Origin: a bacterium
GTDB taxonomy: Bacteria; JAHJDO01
Reading direction: 5' to 3'
Assembly (NCBI GenBank): GCA_030652805.1
Contig: JAUSPT010000068.1
Coordinates: forward strand, 1-17,351
DNA: 17,351 nucleotides
The position numbers and the translations under genes are program-made. The notes beneath the pieces were generated by a model. That model had not been told where the DNA came from. It worked only from the letters and a program-made list of their open reading frames with translations, and searched no databases. Positions 5,151 to 16,733 of this stretch are shown here, piece by piece (the stretch's first letter is position 1; the number at the start of each line of letters is the position of its first letter).

Positions 5151-6317
5151 ATGGACAGAGTATTAATTACAGACGGTCACTGGAGAAAGACACTTGCTGC
5201 AACCAGGGCGCTTGGAGAGAAAGGTATAGCAGTAACTGTTGGGGAAACTAGCATATTTGCCACTTCTTTATTCTCGAAATATTGTGCAAGAAGACTTGTT
5301 TATCCATCTCCTAAAAGAAATCCTGATGAATTTATAACTGCAATTATTGCAGAATTAACCAGGTTCAAATACAAGGCTATCCTTCCAATGGAAGAAACAA
5401 CAATGCTTGTTCTCTCTCAGCATAAGGAGAAAATAGAAAAATATACAAATTTACCTATTCTGAATTATGCGATGCTCAATCTTGCCAGAAATAAGGCAAG
5501 AGTTATAAAGCATGCTCAGTCTATTGGGATTCCATGTCCAAAAACATATTTTATAGAGAACATTAAAGAAGTTGAACAGATATCAAATAGCCTGCCATAT
5601 CCAGTAATAATAAAGCCTCAAATCAGTTCAGGATCTTTTGGCATCAGGAAGGTTGATTCAAAAGAAAACCTCATGACTAATTATCTTCAAATACACAGCA
5701 AGTTTCCTTATCCTATAATTCAGGAGTACATACCTGATGGAGGAGCATTCGGAGTTTCTTTGCTGTTTAACAGGAGAAGTCAACTGCGTGCAATATTCAC
5801 TCATAAAAGATTACGAGAATATCCTGTAAAAGGTGGGCCAAGCACCTTGCGCAAAGGAATAAGAAGATATGACATAGAGAATTTAGCGCTAGAACTTATG
5901 AAATCACTTTTGTGGTATGGTGTAGCTATGGTTGAATTCAGAATTGACAAGCGGGATGATATCCCCAAATTAATGGAAATTAATCCGAGATTCTGGGGAT
6001 CCTTACAACTTGCAATTTCTTCTGGTGTTAATTTCCCATATCTTTTATATGAGATAGCATGTAAGGGAGATACAGAAGGAGTTTTTGAATATAAGACAGG
6101 TATAAAGTGCAGATGGCTGTTATTCGGAGATGTATTGCATTTTTTGTCCAACCAGAAAAGATTCTCATTGGATCCAGGATTTTTTAAGTTCTTTGATAAG
6201 AACACGTCATATGATATATGCTCAACTGCGGACATTAAGCCAATATTTGGAAGGATATTATCAGGAATAACAATTTTATACGATCCAGACATGAGAAAGT
6301 TCCTGAAGAAAAGGTAA
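5151..6317 (+). CDS. ATP-grasp domain protein, carboxylate-amine ligase-like
   Basis: ATP-grasp enzymes activate a carboxylate as an acyl phosphate and couple it to a nucleophile. The 388 residues show an N-terminal Rossmann-like domain (VLITDGHWRKTLAATRAL), a lid strand with the ATP lysine (PVIIKPQISSGSFG), IIQEYIPDGGAFG, the loop KGGPSTLRKG, and the metal-binding motif M275-E-I-N278 followed by PRFWGS. This matches the predicted ATP-grasp family related to COG3919; the substrate is unknown. No Shine-Dalgarno is visible before ATG 5151. A 6-bp inverted repeat (GCAAAT 5115-5120, ATTTGC 5135-5140) lies in the short gap after purC. The neighbours (purC and a sugar-epimerase-like gene) do not settle its role. 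Confidence 0.85.
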   Translation: MDRVLITDGHWRKTLAATRALGEKGIAVTVGETSIFATSLFSKYCARRLVYPSPKRNPDEFITAIIAELTRFKYKAILPMEETTMLVLSQHKEKIEKYTNLPILNYAMLNLARNKARVIKHAQSIGIPCPKTYFIENIKEVEQISNSLPYPVIIKPQISSGSFGIRKVDSKENLMTNYLQIHSKFPYPIIQEYIPDGGAFGVSLLFNRRSQLRAIFTHKRLREYPVKGGPSTLRKGIRRYDIENLALELMKSLLWYGVAMVEFRIDKRDDIPKLMEINPRFWGSLQLAISSGVNFPYLLYEIACKGDTEGVFEYKTGIKCRWLLFGDVLHFLSNQKRFSLDPGFFKFFDKNTSYDICSTADIKPIFGRILSGITILYDPDMRKFLKKR

Positions 6318-8247: not shown

Positions 8248-8848
8248 ACATGGCCAAACTTCTGGCAACAGCGCACTAAAATATTTTGGTATTACTGATG
8301 TGGAGTTAAATAAAGAGGGCATAATCCAGGCTGGATTGGCAAGTAAAAGATTAGAAAAGGAAAACATTTACAGAATTTACAGCAGTAGTTTAAAAAGAGC
8401 ATTTAAAACTGCAGAAATAATAGCAAAACCTCACAGAATAAGTATTGAATTGAAAGAAGACCTGAGGGAAATCAACTTTGGAAATTGGGAAGGCCTAAGT
8501 TTTCAAGAAATCCGGATGAGTTGTCCACATGAATTTTCTGAGTGGCAGAATAATATAATGGGTTTCACAATGCCTCAAGGGGAATCGATATTAGAACTAA
8601 AAAGAAGAGTTGAGACAGCATTTAATGAAATATTAAATAGTGCAAAGGAGAATAATGTTGTTATTGTAACGCATGGAGGACCAATAAGGATAATATTGAG
8701 TAAAATACTTTCTCCAAATGCGTTAGAGACTGCGTTCTGGAAGATAAAGCAGGATAATGCTGCATTAAATATTATTGAGAATACAGACAACACACAGATA
8801 ATATCATTAATTAATGACACATCTCATCTGAATCCTAGGCGGTTTTAG
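8225..8848 (+). CDS. Histidine phosphatase family protein (phosphoglycerate mutase-like)
   Basis: This branch of the superfamily transfers or removes phosphate through a phosphohistidine. The catalytic motif R8-H9-G sits in IIRHGQTSGN. R58 (SSSLKRAF), E82 (LREINFGNWEG) and H150 (VTHGGP) complete the pocket. The LREINFGNWEG form and the 207-residue length resemble alpha-ribazole phosphatase (CobC) and related small phosphatases rather than glycolytic mutase. No cobalamin gene is nearby, so no symbol is given. The start is GTG 8225, inside the PHP gene, with AAGGAG about 8-10 nt upstream. The 3' end overlaps the convergent scaffold gene by 14 nt. Confidence 0.88.
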   Translation: MGKIFIIRHGQTSGNSALKYFGITDVELNKEGIIQAGLASKRLEKENIYRIYSSSLKRAFKTAEIIAKPHRISIELKEDLREINFGNWEGLSFQEIRMSCPHEFSEWQNNIMGFTMPQGESILELKRRVETAFNEILNSAKENNVVIVTHGGPIRIILSKILSPNALETAFWKIKQDNAALNIIENTDNTQIISLINDTSHLNPRRF

Positions 8849-9215
8849 CTTTTACCAGATAGTCATTAATTGCTGATTTGAGTGCCTCCTCTGCCAAAAC
8901 CGAACAATGCATTTTTATATGTGGAAGTCCACCCAATGCTTCTGCTACTGCTCGATTTGATATCTTAAGTGCTTCATCTATGGTTTTCCCTTTAACTAAT
9001 TCAGTAACCATGCTGCTTGTAGCTATAGCTGCACCACATCCAAAGGTCTTAAATTTAGCATCTACAATAATATTATTTTTCACCTTAATATACATTTCCA
9101 TAATATCCCCACAAACAGGATTCCCTACGTGCCCAATACCATCCGGATTTTTTATTTCACCTACGTTTCGTGGGTTTCTGAAATGCTCCATCACTTTCTT
9201 ACTGTAGTTTTCCAC
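8835..9215 (-). CDS. iscU: Iron-sulfur cluster scaffold protein, IscU/NifU N-terminal type
   Basis: The scaffold assembles Fe-S clusters from sulfur delivered by a cysteine desulfurase and passes them to client proteins. All three cluster cysteines are present: C35 in NPVCGD, C60 in FGCGAA and C104 in HCS. D37, which modulates cluster lability in this family, is also there. At 126 residues it is a complete stand-alone scaffold. The start is GTG (complement of CAC 9213-9215), supported by AGGAG 7 nt upstream and by the family N-terminus ENYSKKVMEHFRNPRN. No desulfurase, hscA/hscB or ferredoxin gene is adjacent, so it is an orphan copy. It would serve radical-SAM and other Fe-S enzymes such as the aminomutase encoded further right. 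Confidence 0.93.
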   Translation of the reverse strand: MENYSKKVMEHFRNPRNVGEIKNPDGIGHVGNPVCGDIMEMYIKVKNNIIVDAKFKTFGCGAAIATSSMVTELVKGKTIDEALKISNRAVAEALGGLPHIKMHCSVLAEEALKSAINDYLVKAKTA

Positions 9216-10078: not shown

Positions 10079-10781
10079 GCTTTTCTTTATTGTTTGAAGG
10101 GGTGCTCTTTTTTAGTTTTATTTTTTGCCTGGCCAGACTATAAAGATGCCGCAGTCTGTAGAAGATTGCTATTCCTAAAATTAAACCAACAAATATCGAG
10201 GGGATAAGTTTCCCTGCTCCTGTAGCGAACTCAAATAGATAATCAAAAGCAAATGTCCATGATATGACACTAGCAATCATCGCAGATGTTACCACGCAAA
10301 TTACAGTAATTGTACGCATACCAATCAAAGTTCCGATAATTGCTCCTACCAATGCTCCACTTGAGAAAAGAGGAGCCCACACAAAAAAGGCTAATCCCAG
10401 AGAGCCCCATTTTTCTATTTTAGGCTGATACTTTTCAGCTTTATGTTTAACTGAACCGATGATTTTCCCTATAAATTTCATTTCTATTAAATGTTCGTAA
10501 AAATAAATAATTGGGGGATAAAGAACAAAAAGAAATGTGAGATTAGAAAAAACTAAAATTGAAATAACTAAAAATTTAGATAATCCAAGATTTAAGCCCA
10601 GAGATATACTCACACCTCTTCCACCAAGAAAGTAAGCAGCAATTACTGAAAATAAATTCTCTTTTAACTCAGGAATATAGTGTCCAAATAGAGCAAAAAG
10701 AATTAGTTCAATTGCAAGAAGACAACAACCAATCAGGAAGATAAGTCCTTCTATGCTTCTAAAAAAAGAAAATTTTGACAT
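10062..10781 (-). CDS. Small multidrug export-type integral membrane protein
   Basis: The 239 residues carry about five or six membrane segments and a basic tail from about residue 210. The segment WGSLGLAFFVWAPLFSSGAL followed by VGAIIGTLIGM resembles the core of the COG2426 / Sm_multidrug_ex family, whose transport role is predicted rather than proven. The start ATG at 10781 has no Shine-Dalgarno. A promoter match TTTACA-17-TAAAAT on this strand (-10 at 10788-10793) would start the transcript almost at the start codon, making it leaderless. It is divergent from the MarR gene and shares its control region, so MarR may regulate it, and it could export a toxic compound or the product of the right-hand cluster. 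The last two ideas are inference. Confidence 0.75.
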   Translation of the reverse strand: MSKFSFFRSIEGLIFLIGCCLLAIELILFALFGHYIPELKENLFSVIAAYFLGGRGVSISLGLNLGLSKFLVISILVFSNLTFLFVLYPPIIYFYEHLIEMKFIGKIIGSVKHKAEKYQPKIEKWGSLGLAFFVWAPLFSSGALVGAIIGTLIGMRTITVICVVTSAMIASVISWTFAFDYLFEFATGAGKLIPSIFVGLILGIAIFYRLRHLYSLARQKIKLKKSTPSNNKEKHDNRD

Positions 10782-10803
10782 ACAAACATTTTACATATAT
10801 AAT
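10775..10803 (+). promoter_or_regulatory. Consensus sigma-70 promoter for the marR-kamA operon
   Basis: TTGACA (10775-10780), a 17-nt spacer and TATAAT (10798-10803) match the housekeeping promoter consensus at all twelve positions. Transcription would start near 10810, leaving a leader of about 55 nt before ATG 10866. The -35 hexamer overlaps the first codon of the divergent membrane-protein gene, so transcription of the two sides may interfere. The strength of the match suggests that the promoter needs repression. Confidence 0.85.
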
Positions 10804-10816
10804 ATTTATATGTAAA
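10790..10816. promoter_or_regulatory. 27-bp palindrome, probable MarR operator
   Basis: The arms TTTACATATA (10790-10799) and TATATGTAAA (10807-10816) are perfect reverse complements around a 7-nt centre. The palindrome covers the TATAAT of the rightward promoter and the start region of the leftward transcript. A symmetric AT-rich site of this kind next to its own gene is what dimeric MarR proteins bind. On this evidence the regulator would repress itself, the kamA operon and the divergent exporter. Confidence 0.7.
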
Positions 10817-10865: not shown

Positions 10866-11393
10866 ATGGATAGTAGCAATAGTATAGAATTTGAAATCTT
10901 CAGTACTTTAAGAAAAATAATTAAAACCGTAGATATTTATTCTGCAAAATTAAAAATGGAACATAAAATAAATTCTTCACAACTATCCTGTTTATTAGTT
11001 CTTGGAGAGCTAGGCTCAATTTCACTTAGCCAGTTAAGTAAAAAGGTTTCCTTGTCTCCAAGTATGATTACTGGTGTTATAGATCAACTTGAAAGCAAAG
11101 AATTGGTCACAAGAGCAAGGAATTCCACTGATAGAAGAGTGATACTTATTGAATTAACAGAGAAGGGGAAAGACACTCTAAAAAACGCTCCGCTTTCTAT
11201 CCAAAAGAAATTGGTAAATGCTTTGTCTGCTATAAAAAAAGAAGAAAAAATAGAAATCAATAAAAGCTTGTTAAAATTATTGTCAATGATGGTATCAGAA
11301 GTATTAATAGATTCTTCTATCTTCGGAGCCGAAGATAAGATGGTAGATGTTGAACCTTCTGTCATTCAATCAGAAGAAAATTTAAAAAGTTAG
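10866..11393 (+). CDS. MarR family transcriptional regulator
   Basis: MarR proteins are dimeric winged-helix regulators that usually repress nearby genes and release DNA on binding a small ligand. In this 175-residue protein the reading helices lie in SLSQLSKKVSLSPSMITGVI (about 54-73), followed by the wing with the typical DRRVILIELTEKGK. A C-terminal tail of about 30 residues beyond the usual end is acidic. ATG 10866 has AAAGGG 9 nt upstream. kamA starts 6 nt after its stop, so it is the first gene of the operon, and its likely operator lies directly upstream. The ligand is unknown; lysine, beta-lysine or a related compound is a guess from context. Confidence 0.9.
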   Translation: MDSSNSIEFEIFSTLRKIIKTVDIYSAKLKMEHKINSSQLSCLLVLGELGSISLSQLSKKVSLSPSMITGVIDQLESKELVTRARNSTDRRVILIELTEKGKDTLKNAPLSIQKKLVNALSAIKKEEKIEINKSLLKLLSMMVSEVLIDSSIFGAEDKMVDVEPSVIQSEENLKS

Positions 11394-11399
11394 AAAATA

Positions 11400-12731
11400 A
11401 TGGAATTTGATAATAAACAACAAAAAAACATAGTTAATATTATTTCTACCGACCAAGAACCAGTTTTTTCAAATTGGAGAGATTATAAATGGCAGTTAAA
11501 ACATTCAATTAAAGATATTGAGACATTTGAAAAACTAACCGACATCAAATTCAGCAAAAAGGAAAAGTCTGAACTTAAAAAAACAATTGATAAATTCCCA
11601 ATTTCTATAACGCCATATTATCTATCTCTCATTAATAAGGATGATTATCTGAATGATCCTGTTTTTAGGCAGTCGTTTCCTGACCCTCGTGAACTAATTT
11701 TAGAAAAATATGATATGAGTGACCCCTTGCATGAAGATAAAGATAGTCCAGTTGTTGGTATAACACATAGATATCCGGATAGGGTTTTATTTATAATAAG
11801 CAATATATGTTCTATGTACTGCAGGCATTGCACAAGAAAAAGGAAAGTTGGCGATGTGGATTGTATTCCATCAAAGAAAGAAGTAATGAAAGGTATTAAC
11901 TATATAAAAAATACCTCTGTTGTCAGAGATGTTCTGCTTTCTGGAGGCGACCCTTTTATGTTGTCAGATGACTATCTTGACTGGATACTGACCGAACTGC
12001 AAAAAATTCAGCATGTTGAGGTAATAAGAATAGGAACAAGGATGCCTGCTGTTTTGCCTTATCGCATAACTGACGATTTAATTAAAATATTGAGAAAGCA
12101 TCATCCGTTATGGATCAATACACATTTCAATCATCCTAGGGAAATAACAGCTTCTGCAAAAGAATCGTTAAGAAAGTTGGCCGATGCAGGAATTCCATTA
12201 GGCAACCAGAGTGTGTTATTGGCAGGAGTCAATGACTGTCCGCGGATAATTAAAAAATTATCACACGACCTTGTTCAAAGTAGAGTGAGACCGTATTATT
12301 TATATCAATGTGATTTAACAGAAGGCTTAAGCCATTTTAGAACTCCAGTCGGAAAAGGCATAGAAATTATTGAAGGTTTAATAGGGCACACAAGCGGTTT
12401 CGCTATTCCTACTTATGTTATTGATACACCGGGTGGCGCTGGGAAAATTCCTGTTATACCGAATTATATAATCTCATGGTCAACCAATAAAATTGTTTTA
12501 AGAAATTATGAAGGCGTAATTTCTACTTATAAAGAACCCGACTCTTATGAGCCTATTTTTTGCGATAGAAATTGCGCTGATTGTAAGTTGCAGTTAAAAC
12601 TTGACTCAGCAGAGGAAATCAGGGCTACAGGGGTTGGGAAACTTTTATCTGACTTTGACAAGACAATTGCTCTCACTCCGGAACATAGTGACAGAGCTAA
12701 AAGAAGAAATAAAAAACCAAAAGAATACTGA
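11400..12731 (+). CDS. kamA: L-lysine 2,3-aminomutase (radical SAM, PLP-dependent)
   Basis: The enzyme moves the alpha-amino group of lysine to carbon 3, giving beta-lysine, using SAM, a [4Fe-4S] cluster and PLP. The cluster motif is C137-SMY-C141-RH-C144, the SAM-contact motif is S181-GGDP, and the PLP lysine is K349 in PGGAGK. In the clostridial enzyme D293 and D330 bind the side-chain amine, with PLP on K337; here D305, D342 and K349 have the same spacing (37 and 7). Glutamate-type mutases replace the two Asp residues. C280 and C388/C392/C395 could be the intersubunit zinc site. At 443 residues it has the full C-terminal region that the shorter EpmB proteins lack. No Shine-Dalgarno is obvious. 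Its stop overlaps the next gene (TGATG). Confidence 0.92.
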
Positions 12732-14068
12732 TGATAGATTATACCTCTCTAAATAAAATAAAAAATGTTCTCATAGTTGGGAGCTGGGCAAAGGAGCAAA
12801 TTACTATTGAAAACATAAAAAGCAATAAAAAAATAAAAGTATTTTCATATCTAGACACGAAAAATCCGGGCATAATATCATTGGTTGATAGTTATAAAAT
12901 AGGCAGTTTGTATAAGATAGAAAATATTGCGAAATATGCTAAAACAGTTAAAGCAGATCTAGTAATTATAACAACAGCAGCCCCGCTTTCTCTTGGTATT
13001 GTTGATGTTTTGGAAGCAGAAAAAATACCTGTATTTGGGCCGAATAGCACAGCTGCAAAATTAGAATCAGATAAAGAGTTTGCAAGAAAACTTATGCGTA
13101 AATATAGGATTGATGTGCTACCTGAATTTAATGTATTTAGCGAAATTAAACCAGCTATTCAATATGCGAAAGATCTTCAATGGAACGTCGCTGTTAAACC
13201 AGTTTCTCTTACCGAGGGATTAGGGGTGAAGGTTTCCAGAGACCAATTAAAAAACAAAAGCGAGATTATAAACTATATAACACGCGTCCTAAATGATAAC
13301 TCAAAAGTTTTGATAGAGGAAAAGCTTGAAGGCGAAGAATTTACCTTGCAATGTTTGGTTAATGGCACTTGCATAATCTCCACTCCTGCTGTGCAGGATT
13401 TTAAAAAAAAATTACCAGGTGACAGAGGATTGAATACCGCAAGTATGGGCTCTTACTCTGATACAGGGCATATATTGCCTTTTATGAAGCAGGAAGATTA
13501 TGATTCTGGAATTGATATCATAAGAAAAACCGTGAAAGCTTTTCAATCTGAAACAGGGCAGATATGCCGCGGTTTTTTATACGGGCAGTTTATGATTACA
13601 GGAAAAGGGATAAAACTTATAGAATACAATTTTCGTCCTGGAGATCCTGAGTGGATGAATACTTTGATAGTACTGAAGGATAATGTATTAGACATAATTA
13701 AAGATTTACTGAGAGGTAAAGAGAGAAAACTCAGACTTGAGAACAAAGCGTCAGTATGTAAATACATAGTTCCTAATAATTATCCTGAGAAATTAAATGA
13801 GGTGTTGGATATTGCTTTTAAAGAATCGGATATAAAAAAAGATGATGTTAATATCTATTATAGTTGTGGAGTTAACGACAACAGGAAATTGAATACTGGT
13901 TCGGAGAGAGGTATTGCTCTTATTGCAAAAGCTGATACTGTTTCTAAAGCGAATAAAAAGGTAGAGAAAGCAGTCTCATTAGTTAATGGCAGTTTTCACT
14001 ATAGGTTTGATATTGGCACTGAGGAAATGATTAAGTCTAAAATTGCTTTTCGTGAAAACAGATTATGA
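12731..14068 (+). CDS. PurD-like ATP-grasp ligase with altered substrate motifs
   Basis: The 445-residue protein has the full fold of glycinamide ribonucleotide synthetase (PurD): N-terminal domain, ATP-grasp core (FGPNSTAAKLESDKEFARK, VAVKPVSLTEGLGVKV, G201-EEF) and C-terminal domain. The metal residues are kept in E298-YN300-FRPGDPE. The positions that handle the PurD substrates differ: the N-terminal GGREH loop is VGSWAKEQIT, the DHK motif is D223-F-K, GPNTGGMG is G233-LNTASMG, and RFGDPE is RPGDPEW. It is therefore probably an active ATP-dependent ligase with another substrate. It lies between the aminomutase and an acetyltransferase, with one-base overlap to kamA and ATGA overlap to the next gene. 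A beta-lysine or lysine amide bond is the natural guess but remains inference. Automatic pipelines may label it purD. Confidence 0.85.
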   Translation: MIDYTSLNKIKNVLIVGSWAKEQITIENIKSNKKIKVFSYLDTKNPGIISLVDSYKIGSLYKIENIAKYAKTVKADLVIITTAAPLSLGIVDVLEAEKIPVFGPNSTAAKLESDKEFARKLMRKYRIDVLPEFNVFSEIKPAIQYAKDLQWNVAVKPVSLTEGLGVKVSRDQLKNKSEIINYITRVLNDNSKVLIEEKLEGEEFTLQCLVNGTCIISTPAVQDFKKKLPGDRGLNTASMGSYSDTGHILPFMKQEDYDSGIDIIRKTVKAFQSETGQICRGFLYGQFMITGKGIKLIEYNFRPGDPEWMNTLIVLKDNVLDIIKDLLRGKERKLRLENKASVCKYIVPNNYPEKLNEVLDIAFKESDIKKDDVNIYYSCGVNDNRKLNTGSERGIALIAKADTVSKANKKVEKAVSLVNGSFHYRFDIGTEEMIKSKIAFRENRL

Positions 14069-14562
14069 AAGAAGCTATAACTATACGCAGAGCGAATGAA
14101 AGTGAATTTCTTAAAGTTTATCAATTTGTTTCCAATTGCAAGCCGTTAGAAAATTATTCAGAACATTTTTATAAAATAATCCTAAGATATTTTGGAAACA
14201 GCTGCTTCGTTGCTGAATATAATGACAGCATAATTGGATTTGTAATGAGCTTTATTTCACAAACTCACAATAAAACATATTTCTTATGGCAAATAGGTGT
14301 AACGCCTAAAATGCATGGCAAAGGGATAGGAAGGAAACTTCTGGAATCAGTTGAAGTGGAATTGGCGAAAATGGGTTGTGATCGAATTGAACTTACAATA
14401 GATCCGAAAAACATACCTTCCATGAAACTGTTCGAAAAAGCTGGATATAAAAACATTAGCGAAAAAGAGGGAAGCACTCTAATCGTTGATAATAATATCG
14501 CTGTAAAAGATTATTACAAGTCTGAAAGCCATTTTATGCTTTATGAGAAAAACTTTTCATAA
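14065..14562 (+). CDS. GNAT acetyltransferase, EctA-like
   Basis: GNAT enzymes transfer acetyl from acetyl-CoA to an amine. The 165-residue protein contains the pyrophosphate-binding loop H84-GKGIG89 after the strand FLWQIGVTP. The pattern of a 'PLENYSEHFY...CFVAE..D.IIGFV' region followed by FLWQIGV resembles diaminobutyrate acetyltransferase EctA of ectoine synthesis, which has FVWQVAV at the same point. EctB and EctC are absent. Both diaminobutyrate and beta-lysine are diamino acids, so acetylation of beta-lysine, as done by AblB in N-epsilon-acetyl-beta-lysine producers, is a reasonable proposal. AblB itself is usually longer. The start overlaps the previous stop (ATGA), so translation is coupled. 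The EctA resemblance is from memory of the family. Confidence 0.85.
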   Translation: MKEAITIRRANESEFLKVYQFVSNCKPLENYSEHFYKIILRYFGNSCFVAEYNDSIIGFVMSFISQTHNKTYFLWQIGVTPKMHGKGIGRKLLESVEVELAKMGCDRIELTIDPKNIPSMKLFEKAGYKNISEKEGSTLIVDNNIAVKDYYKSESHFMLYEKNFS

Positions 14563-14587
14563 GCATGTTGTATAAGGAGATAAATAA

Positions 14588-16051
14588 ATGGGAAGATTGA
14601 AGTTCCGATTAGGATTTCTTCGCAAAAAACAATTTTTAATGATATTTGTTTTAGCATTTCTAATTATTATTAATATTGACTTATTTGCAAAAGAGAAAGA
14701 AACATTTACTATAGCTTTAACAGGTAAATATCCTCCTTTTAATTTCTATTCGGATGAAGGAAAGTTAGTAGGTTTTGATGTTGACACAGCAAAAAAAATA
14801 TCAAAACATTTAAATCGAAAACTTGTTATTATTCCCACGGAATGGGATTCTATAGTAGCAGGGCTGCTGTTCAAAAAATACGATGCAATAATAGGTTCAA
14901 TGGCAATAACACCTGAGCGTGCGAAGAAAGTAAACTTTTCTATCCCTTACTACATATCCGGCGCTCAACTGTTCATACACAAAAGGAATAGAGAGAAAAT
15001 AAAGAAAATAACCGATCTTTACGGGAAAAAGGTCGGTGTTGGATTAGGTGAAACTTATGAACACTACCTAAGGAAAAACCATCCGAGTATAAAAATTGTT
15101 ACTTACAAAAGCACAGTAGATATTTTTATGGATATGCACAATAACAGACTGGACGGATTTTTAACAGATAGGCTTGTCGGCTTATATCAGATTAAAAAAG
15201 GGCATATGCCTTTTATCCCAGCTGGCCAACTCTTATATGAGGAGAAAATGGCTATTCCTGTAACTATTAATAACACTGAATTACTGACCAATATAAATAA
15301 GGCATTAAAGAGAATGAAAGAAGATGGAACTTCTGCAAAACTCCACAAGAAATGGTTTGGAAGTGCTTCAGTTAGCGATCCAAAAGCCGAAAGAGACATG
15401 AGAACAGAGGTAATTATAAAAAAACTCGCGCAGGGTTTTGCTATTACACTGTTCGTTGCGTTTATTTCTATCTTGTTCGGGTTTATTCTGTCAGTCCCCT
15501 CAGGCATTATTCTTAACAGCAAAAAAACTTTCTTATACCATATCTTAAGATCGTCTAATGATATTATAAGAGGAACACCACTTCTTATACAGCTCTTTTT
15601 TGTCTATTTTGGCGCTCCACAGATAGGAATAACTCTTGCTCCCATTCAAGCAGCAATAATAACTTTGACAATCAATTCATCTGCCTATATGTCTGAAGTG
15701 ATAAGATCCGGGCTTATGGCTGTTGACCATGGTCAGAATCTTGCAGGAAAAGCGCTTGGGTTGACAAAACTGCAGGTCTTTAGATATGTAATTTGGCCTC
15801 AATCCTTTAGAGTGTCTCTTCCCCCTCTTGTAAATTCAGTAGTGGCCTTAATGAAAGACACAGCCTTAATTGCTATGATATCCGTAGGGGAAGTTATTAG
15901 GGAAACTCAATCAATAATCAGCGTAACTTATAACCCGATAAAATATTACTTTATTGTTGGGGCTATGTTTTTTGTTTTTACATTCCCCTTAATGAAAATG
16001 GCTAACAAATTAGAAAAGAATATTAAAGAAAGAGGATTTACCCATGCTTAA
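14588..16051 (+). CDS. Amino acid ABC transporter, fused substrate-binding and permease protein
   Basis: One chain joins a periplasmic amino-acid-binding domain to a membrane permease. A signal or anchor segment (about 16-33, basic before it, possible cleavage after A34) precedes the binding domain (about 36-258, with GFDVD and the carboxylate-binding Arg in ITPERAKKVNFS). A linker leads to the permease (about 285-480), with RGTPLLIQLFFVYFG and the ATPase-docking loop A386-GKALGLTKLQVFRYVIWPQ. The overall pattern is the polar amino acid (HisM/GlnP) uptake family. Fusions of this kind are known in other bacteria. AAGGAG precedes ATG 14588, 25 nt after the acetyltransferase. It probably supplies an amino acid, possibly lysine, to the cluster, or recovers its product. 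Confidence 0.92.
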   Translation: MGRLKFRLGFLRKKQFLMIFVLAFLIIINIDLFAKEKETFTIALTGKYPPFNFYSDEGKLVGFDVDTAKKISKHLNRKLVIIPTEWDSIVAGLLFKKYDAIIGSMAITPERAKKVNFSIPYYISGAQLFIHKRNREKIKKITDLYGKKVGVGLGETYEHYLRKNHPSIKIVTYKSTVDIFMDMHNNRLDGFLTDRLVGLYQIKKGHMPFIPAGQLLYEEKMAIPVTINNTELLTNINKALKRMKEDGTSAKLHKKWFGSASVSDPKAERDMRTEVIIKKLAQGFAITLFVAFISILFGFILSVPSGIILNSKKTFLYHILRSSNDIIRGTPLLIQLFFVYFGAPQIGITLAPIQAAIITLTINSSAYMSEVIRSGLMAVDHGQNLAGKALGLTKLQVFRYVIWPQSFRVSLPPLVNSVVALMKDTALIAMISVGEVIRETQSIISVTYNPIKYYFIVGAMFFVFTFPLMKMANKLEKNIKERGFTHA

Positions 16052-16733
16052 GATTAAAAATTTAACTTATACATATCCTAACGGAACTACTGCTCTGAAA
16101 AACATTAATACAGAAATTCAAAAAACACATATTTTTGCAATAATGGGGTCAAGCGGTTCAGGAAAAACAACTATGTTAAACTGCATAGGTAAATTTCTAA
16201 AACCTGATACAGGCAGCATACTAATCAATGGCAAAAACATATATAACATAGAAGAAAGAGTATTGAGAGAAAAAATCGGCATTGTTTTTCAACAGCTTTA
16301 TCTTTTTCCTCATCTTACTGTTCTGGAGAATATGATATTAGCGCCTATGAAGGTACTAAAACAGGATAGAGAAAAAGCAAAAAAAGAAGCTGTAAAAACA
16401 CTTAAAAAATTAGGAATTAATGAACTAAAAAACAGTTATCCGTCACAAATAAGCGGAGGACAGGCTCAACGTGTTGCTATTGCGCGCGCATTAATACTAA
16501 AACCATCTTACCTGCTACTTGATGAACCTACCTCTGCTCTTGATGTAAACACAACAGGTGAATTTGGAAAATGGCTCGTAGATTTAAAAGAGGAAACAAC
16601 ATTCGTTATTGTTACTCATGATGTACCCTTCGCAAGTGAAATCGCGACATCGGGAGTTTTAATGGCAAATGGGAAAATAGAATACACTGGAAGCATTAAG
16701 GATATTTTAAAAACTCTAAATATTAAGACATAA
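16044..16733 (+). CDS. Amino acid ABC transporter ATP-binding protein
   Basis: This is the energy-coupling subunit for the fused permease. The 229 residues show Walker A G35-SSGSGKTT, a Q-loop in VFQQLYLFPHLTV, the signature I136-SGGQAQR (the I replaces the more common L), Walker B YLLLD160-E161 and the switch H192 in VTHD. Family members are usually about 240 residues, so it is complete. It overlaps the permease gene by 8 nt, the usual sign of a stoichiometric pair. No terminator follows; the next gene begins 35 nt later. Confidence 0.95.
   Translation: MLKIKNLTYTYPNGTTALKNINTEIQKTHIFAIMGSSGSGKTTMLNCIGKFLKPDTGSILINGKNIYNIEERVLREKIGIVFQQLYLFPHLTVLENMILAPMKVLKQDREKAKKEAVKTLKKLGINELKNSYPSQISGGQAQRVAIARALILKPSYLLLDEPTSALDVNTTGEFGKWLVDLKEETTFVIVTHDVPFASEIATSGVLMANGKIEYTGSIKDILKTLNIKT

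Follow-up and report, generated by a model that had tools for sequence, protein, structure and literature searches.

A PurD-derived ligase linked to lysine 2,3-aminomutase and an EctA-like acetyltransferase: a candidate route to acetylated aminoacyl-beta-lysine solutes

What might a bacterium synthesize from an operon that joins lysine 2,3-aminomutase (KamA) to a PurD-like ligase and an EctA-like acetyltransferase? The question is raised by the window, meaning here the whole 17,351-nucleotide stretch analysed, which is contig C68 of a 2.0 Mb assembly of 102 contigs. Direct reading located all six open reading frames that the first-pass annotation had described as co-directional and tightly packed, and matches to Pfam and NCBIfam profiles upheld the function it had given to each (Table 1). 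Its remark that no pathway with this gene set had been described agrees with the open-access literature searched, where none was found; no paper there treated beta-lysine together with ATP-grasp enzymes or with PurD, and none treated ATP-grasp together with dipeptide, osmolyte and acetyltransferase. We refer to the ligase as PurDL.

Operon organization and regulation

Spacing within the operon is minimal: MarR and KamA are 6 bp apart, KamA and PurDL overlap by 1 bp, PurDL and the GNAT by 4 bp, and the binding protein-permease and ATPase genes by 8 bp, with a 25 bp gap between the GNAT and the permease fusion. Upstream lies a sigma-70-type promoter whose -10 box is overlapped by a perfect inverted repeat, TTTACATATA-N7-TATATGTAAA, of which imperfect copies occur in L072 and L027. 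This arrangement suggests that the MarR protein binds the repeat and probably represses the operon from there. No Na+ or other riboswitch, a type of element known for some kamA genes, was found upstream in the window, nor did any score above gathering upstream in nine relatives. The fused binding protein-permease is confined to the genus of the window, being present also in L072 and not found beside L027; the adjoining importer may take up lysine or the pathway product. Elsewhere in the window, a second, unrelated ATP-grasp protein (5151-6317) is encoded beside SAICAR synthetase, a DUF4432 protein and a PHP-domain protein, and a scaffold gene with a NifU N-terminal domain (IscU-like; 8835-9215, minus strand) is convergent with a histidine phosphatase gene.

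Table 1. Features of the operon and of related loci (positions refer to the window unless a locus is named).
Feature	Position	Strand	Evidence or remark
Sigma-70-type promoter, TTGACA, 17 bp, TATAAT	10775..10803	+	Direct reading; same arrangement in close relative L027
Perfect 10-bp inverted repeat across the -10 box; putative MarR operator	10790..10816	+	Direct reading
MarR-family regulator	10866..11393	+	PF01047 8e-17
KamA/AblA lysine 2,3-aminomutase, beta-lysine supply	11400..12731	+	TIGR03820, PDB 2a5h
PurDL, ATP-grasp ligase derived from PurD; predicted to join an amino acid to beta-lysine	12731..14068	+	
EctA-like GNAT, predicted acetyltransferase of the PurDL product	14065..14562	+	TIGR02406, family alignment, AF2 model, fold search
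Fused amino-acid substrate-binding/permease protein	14588..16051	+	PF00497 (SBP_bac_3), PF00528 (BPD_transp_1)
ABC transporter ATPase partner	16044..16733	+	PF00005 2.9e-38; also in L072
604-605-aa KamA-family protein	L028 8840-10654; L029 8840-10654; L070 4085-5902		

Assignment of KamA

The aminomutase of the window is a true lysine 2,3-aminomutase: it scores 763.5 bits against TIGR03820 (cut-off 525.4), matches PDB 2a5h at 1.3e-143, carries the Cx3Cx2C radical SAM motif as CSMYCRHC and keeps R134, D293 and D330 (2a5h numbering), which we take to be the lysine-contact residues. Enzymes of this family take part in lysine fermentation and, under the name EpmB, in the modification of elongation factor EF-P, so that either role could be proposed for the operon. 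Both are extremely improbable and were rejected. The EpmB profile reaches only 238 bits on this protein, under its cut-off of 369, and, beyond the absence of lysine-fermentation genes already held against catabolism on first reading, none of 15 PurDL genomes has a PF09043 (beta-lysine 5,6-aminomutase) match above cut-off, although the control genomes, which have none either, give no positive control. The KamA of the Bacteroidales operon (L033, 5791-6990) is diverged, with 42% identity and a score under the lysine 2,3-aminomutase cut-off; it retains the lysine-site Arg and both Asp residues.

Relationship of PurDL to GAR synthetase

PurDL is close enough to GAR synthetase to pass as one. The window protein exceeds the TIGR00877 cut-off of 288 by a small margin (321.9 bits), the Bacteroidales homologue falls under it (269.5), and the best structural matches of the AF2 model (pLDDT 88, built from an eight-row alignment) are GAR synthetases, with a TM of 0.85 to 2yw2. 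In the alignment-based scoring, full-length PurDL proteins obtained 658-816 bits and canonical PurD at most 422, and a tree branch with support of 100/99 splits the two groups. On these comparisons PurDL is a clade separate from PurD and most probably not a second purine enzyme.

Residue conservation indicates what may have been kept and what lost. Aquifex PurD holds ATP through K103, K143, E185, E192 and K214, and glycine through D212, R287 and E292 (PMC8880213). The equivalents of the ATP contacts (K115, K156, E196, E203, K225) and of the glycine contacts (D223, R302, E307) are invariant across the PurDL alignment. In the N domain, GGGREH is replaced by SWAKEQ and GPE by TTA with near-total consistency; GGREH and GPE are absent from all 14 PurDL proteins compared and near-invariant in 31 PurD proteins. 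By analogy with PurT and PurK, this domain of PurD presumably takes the ribose-phosphate substrate, and the signature motifs accordingly point to loss of the phosphoribosylamine site in PurDL. Since the acyl contacts are kept and the N-domain motifs are lost, the enzyme has most likely retained the phosphorylation of an amino-acid carboxylate and accepts a different amine. Beside the predicted acyl site, GG is changed to AS, QDHK to QDFK and RFGDPE to RPGDPEW (A/T to W), and such substitutions may indicate an acyl donor other than glycine.

The profile score and the fold would also suit a second functional GAR synthetase; the rest of the operon would then be an ordinary N-acetyl-beta-lysine pathway in which the GNAT stands in for AblB. 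We regard this as very improbable. Canonical PurD is additionally encoded in the window genome (G000), G002, G049 and the Methanoperedens genomes, which, with the loss of the PurD signature motifs, makes synthesis of glycinamide ribonucleotide by PurDL unlikely, and a role as second GAR synthetase was rejected on these grounds; the clade is separate, PurDL is co-inherited and fused with the GNAT, and AblB and the GNAT occur together in one operon. Diverged PurD paralogues with 29-31% identity (L038, 6821-8218; L039, 6959-8377) share the GDPEWMN motif; no adjoining GNAT was found for these two proteins.

Distribution and gene linkage

Searching 84,980 species genomes with the aligned window protein and KSB1 homologue as query yielded 11 PurDL loci, three of them pieces of one metagenome-assembled genome (MAG), and two distant loci; additional members came from whole-genome searches. 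PurDL is thereby known from 16 genomes, all of them assemblies of variable quality, in at least seven phylum-level lineages. The carriers are the window genome and G002, which belong to one genus; L027; six members of the Methanoperedens order; two genomes labelled Elusimicrobia; single genomes labelled Atribacteria, Aminicenantes and Bacteroidales; and two from the KSB1 phylum. At 10.4 Mb and with several PurDL pieces, the Aminicenantes MAG is probably mixed.

The conserved kamA/PurD-like/EctA-like neighbourhood that the first-pass annotation anticipated does recur, across unrelated bacteria and archaea, and includes gene fusions. The GNAT is fused to PurDL or follows it directly in every copy except one cut by a contig end, and the two form a single open reading frame in five genomes (L031, L032, L033, L036/L037 and L078). 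KamA and PurDL are likewise a single frame in L027, either by natural fusion or through a single-base artefact. In 14 of the 16 genomes kamA lies immediately upstream of PurDL or, where ablB intervenes, of ablB-PurDL. The exceptions are both KSB1: in G049 kamA is located elsewhere, with ablB, and in G1286 the PurDL:GNAT fusion stops near a contig edge and kamA does not adjoin it at that locus. Above cut-off, kamA was found in 13 of 192 broadly sampled genomes (~7%), so its linkage to PurDL is far above background. In a KSB1 genome, kamA and ablB are separated by a sodium:solute symporter-like gene (L071, 4885-6315), and the Aminicenantes MAG has an apparently broken relative of it, 66% identical, downstream of its PurDL:GNAT (L036, 1990-2535).

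Occurrence is sparse: PurDL was detected in three of 385 broad relatives, counting the window genome and G002, in one of 395 genomes of the phylum of the Bacteroidales MAG and in one of 297 of that of the Aminicenantes MAG, the single genome being in each case the seed of the search. In the tree, the Mnv1 copy (L035) falls outside the group of other Methanoperedens PurDL proteins, a placement consistent with horizontal transfer. No relative was found that would point to viral carriage, and plasmids gave only PurD-like matches of ~31% identity or less.

PurDL operons of Methanoperedens and the place of AblB

In Methanoperedens, PurDL operons follow the order mscS-kamA-(ablB)-PurDL-GNAT, with the MscS gene abutting kamA. 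Another strain of this group induces mscS(ynaI)-kamA-ablB under salt and accumulates N-epsilon-acetyl-beta-lysine, and the genes downstream of its ablB have been described as of unknown function (PMC11337218). The AblA/AblB route of methanogens and Ca. Methanoperedens shares its first enzyme and an acetylation theme with the operon studied here, and in Methanoperedens it is encoded in the same operon, with the MscS gene, as PurDL. The PurDL operon differs from it in its additional ligase of PurD origin, in a distinct GNAT that resembles EctA, and in that AblB is optional. AblB (TIGR03827) is missing from eight of 11 genomes tested, the window genome included, and was found in G059, G060 and G049. 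In three Methanoperedens operons (L028, L029, L068) ablB lies between kamA and PurDL, and replacement of AblB by PurDL-GNAT in this group was rejected for that reason. Since AblB is often absent yet sometimes co-operonic, PurDL-GNAT neither needs nor replaces it, and the two look like parallel, independent branches from beta-lysine. In three Methanoperedens the last gene of the PurDL operon encodes a longer KamA-family protein that has an additional N-terminal region (Table 1); this protein scores 316 bits against TIGR00238, under every specific aminomutase cut-off, and might make a second beta-amino acid.

The MscS link is found only in Methanoperedens and no osmotic gene adjoins the operon in the window, which counts against an osmolyte. 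The product could instead be a small peptide with an antibiotic-like or signalling role, a cofactor or a modification of the cell surface. A secondary metabolite would suit the patchy distribution and the restriction of the MarR regulator and the ABC transporter to one genus, and that transporter might carry something other than an osmolyte. Such a role is nevertheless doubtful in our judgement, because the PurDL genes share an operon slot with the salt-induced kamA-ablB and MscS genes in Methanoperedens and no larger biosynthetic gene set was recognized around the copies inspected.

Proposed pathway and product

The reading that we prefer, with confidence about evenly balanced, is a compatible-solute pathway in which PurDL joins an amino acid, with glycine as the favoured candidate, to beta-lysine and the GNAT acetylates the result. 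KamA would convert L-lysine to beta-lysine. PurDL, its amine-acceptor site rebuilt, would activate the carboxylate of an amino acid, most economically glycine, as an acyl phosphate and transfer it to an amine of beta-lysine. One remaining amine of the dipeptide would then be acetylated, giving a net-neutral zwitterion (two amines and one carboxylate, with one acetyl) like N-epsilon-acetyl-beta-lysine. Glycine is favoured as donor because its contacts are conserved and because mono-acetylated glycyl-beta-lysine would be net neutral.

The substitutions beside the acyl site keep alive a different assignment, in which beta-lysine is itself the acyl donor, with its carboxylate activated by PurDL, and the acceptor is ammonia or some other amine; the acetylated product would be a beta-lysyl amide or dipeptide. 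The changed neighbours would fit a larger donor, and peptide-amide osmolytes have a precedent in N-acetylglutaminylglutamine amide (PMC1224877). We consider this unlikely: the three charged glycine contacts are kept and the N-domain motifs lost, so that a change of amine partner would be the smaller evolutionary step, and a beta-lysyl amide with a single acetyl group would carry a net positive charge, by our reasoning unusual in a compatible solute. The plain beta-lysyl amide suggested at the outset is disfavoured on the same count of charge.

By sequence, the closest characterized relative of the window GNAT is EctA, diaminobutyrate acetyltransferase, which acts on a diamino acid. The window protein differs from EctA in scoring 82.8 bits against TIGR02406, under the cut-off of 120.6, and in having no ectB or ectC nearby; in the fold search with the GNAT model, EctA is only one of several near-equal GNAT folds. 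An apparent truncation of the GNAT in L030 was rejected as an artefact of the assigned start, a full-length frame being present. TIGR03103, the GNAT/ATP-grasp fusion of N-acetylglutaminylglutamine amide synthesis, matches the GNAT part only (23.7 bits, 1.5e-5; cut-off 569). The two systems are alike in ATP-grasp plus GNAT logic and in a capped peptide osmolyte, whereas PurDL belongs to another ATP-grasp lineage, and the window operon has no amidotransferase and includes a beta-lysine enzyme. Compared with PurD, PurDL shares the fold and all charged residues contacting ATP and glycine, and it differs in the N-domain motifs, in clade and in its coupling or fusion to GNAT and kamA.

Implications

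More tentatively, the operons may specify compatible solutes of a new class, N-acetylated aminoacyl-beta-lysine dipeptides, whose synthesis would rely on a re-purposed purine ligase fused to its acetyltransferase and whose genes would have spread horizontally between methane-oxidizing archaea and several bacterial phyla. Because the window PurDL passes the PurD cut-off, such genes risk misannotation as GAR synthetase. With three soluble enzymes, the product is directly testable. PurDL genes are also carried by Ca. Methanoperedens, in which work on beta-lysine osmolyte genes has been limited to kamA and ablB. If correct, the proposed pathway would extend a known osmolyte route by a ligation step and a new solute, and PurDL would exemplify a PurD paralogue that has left purine synthesis.
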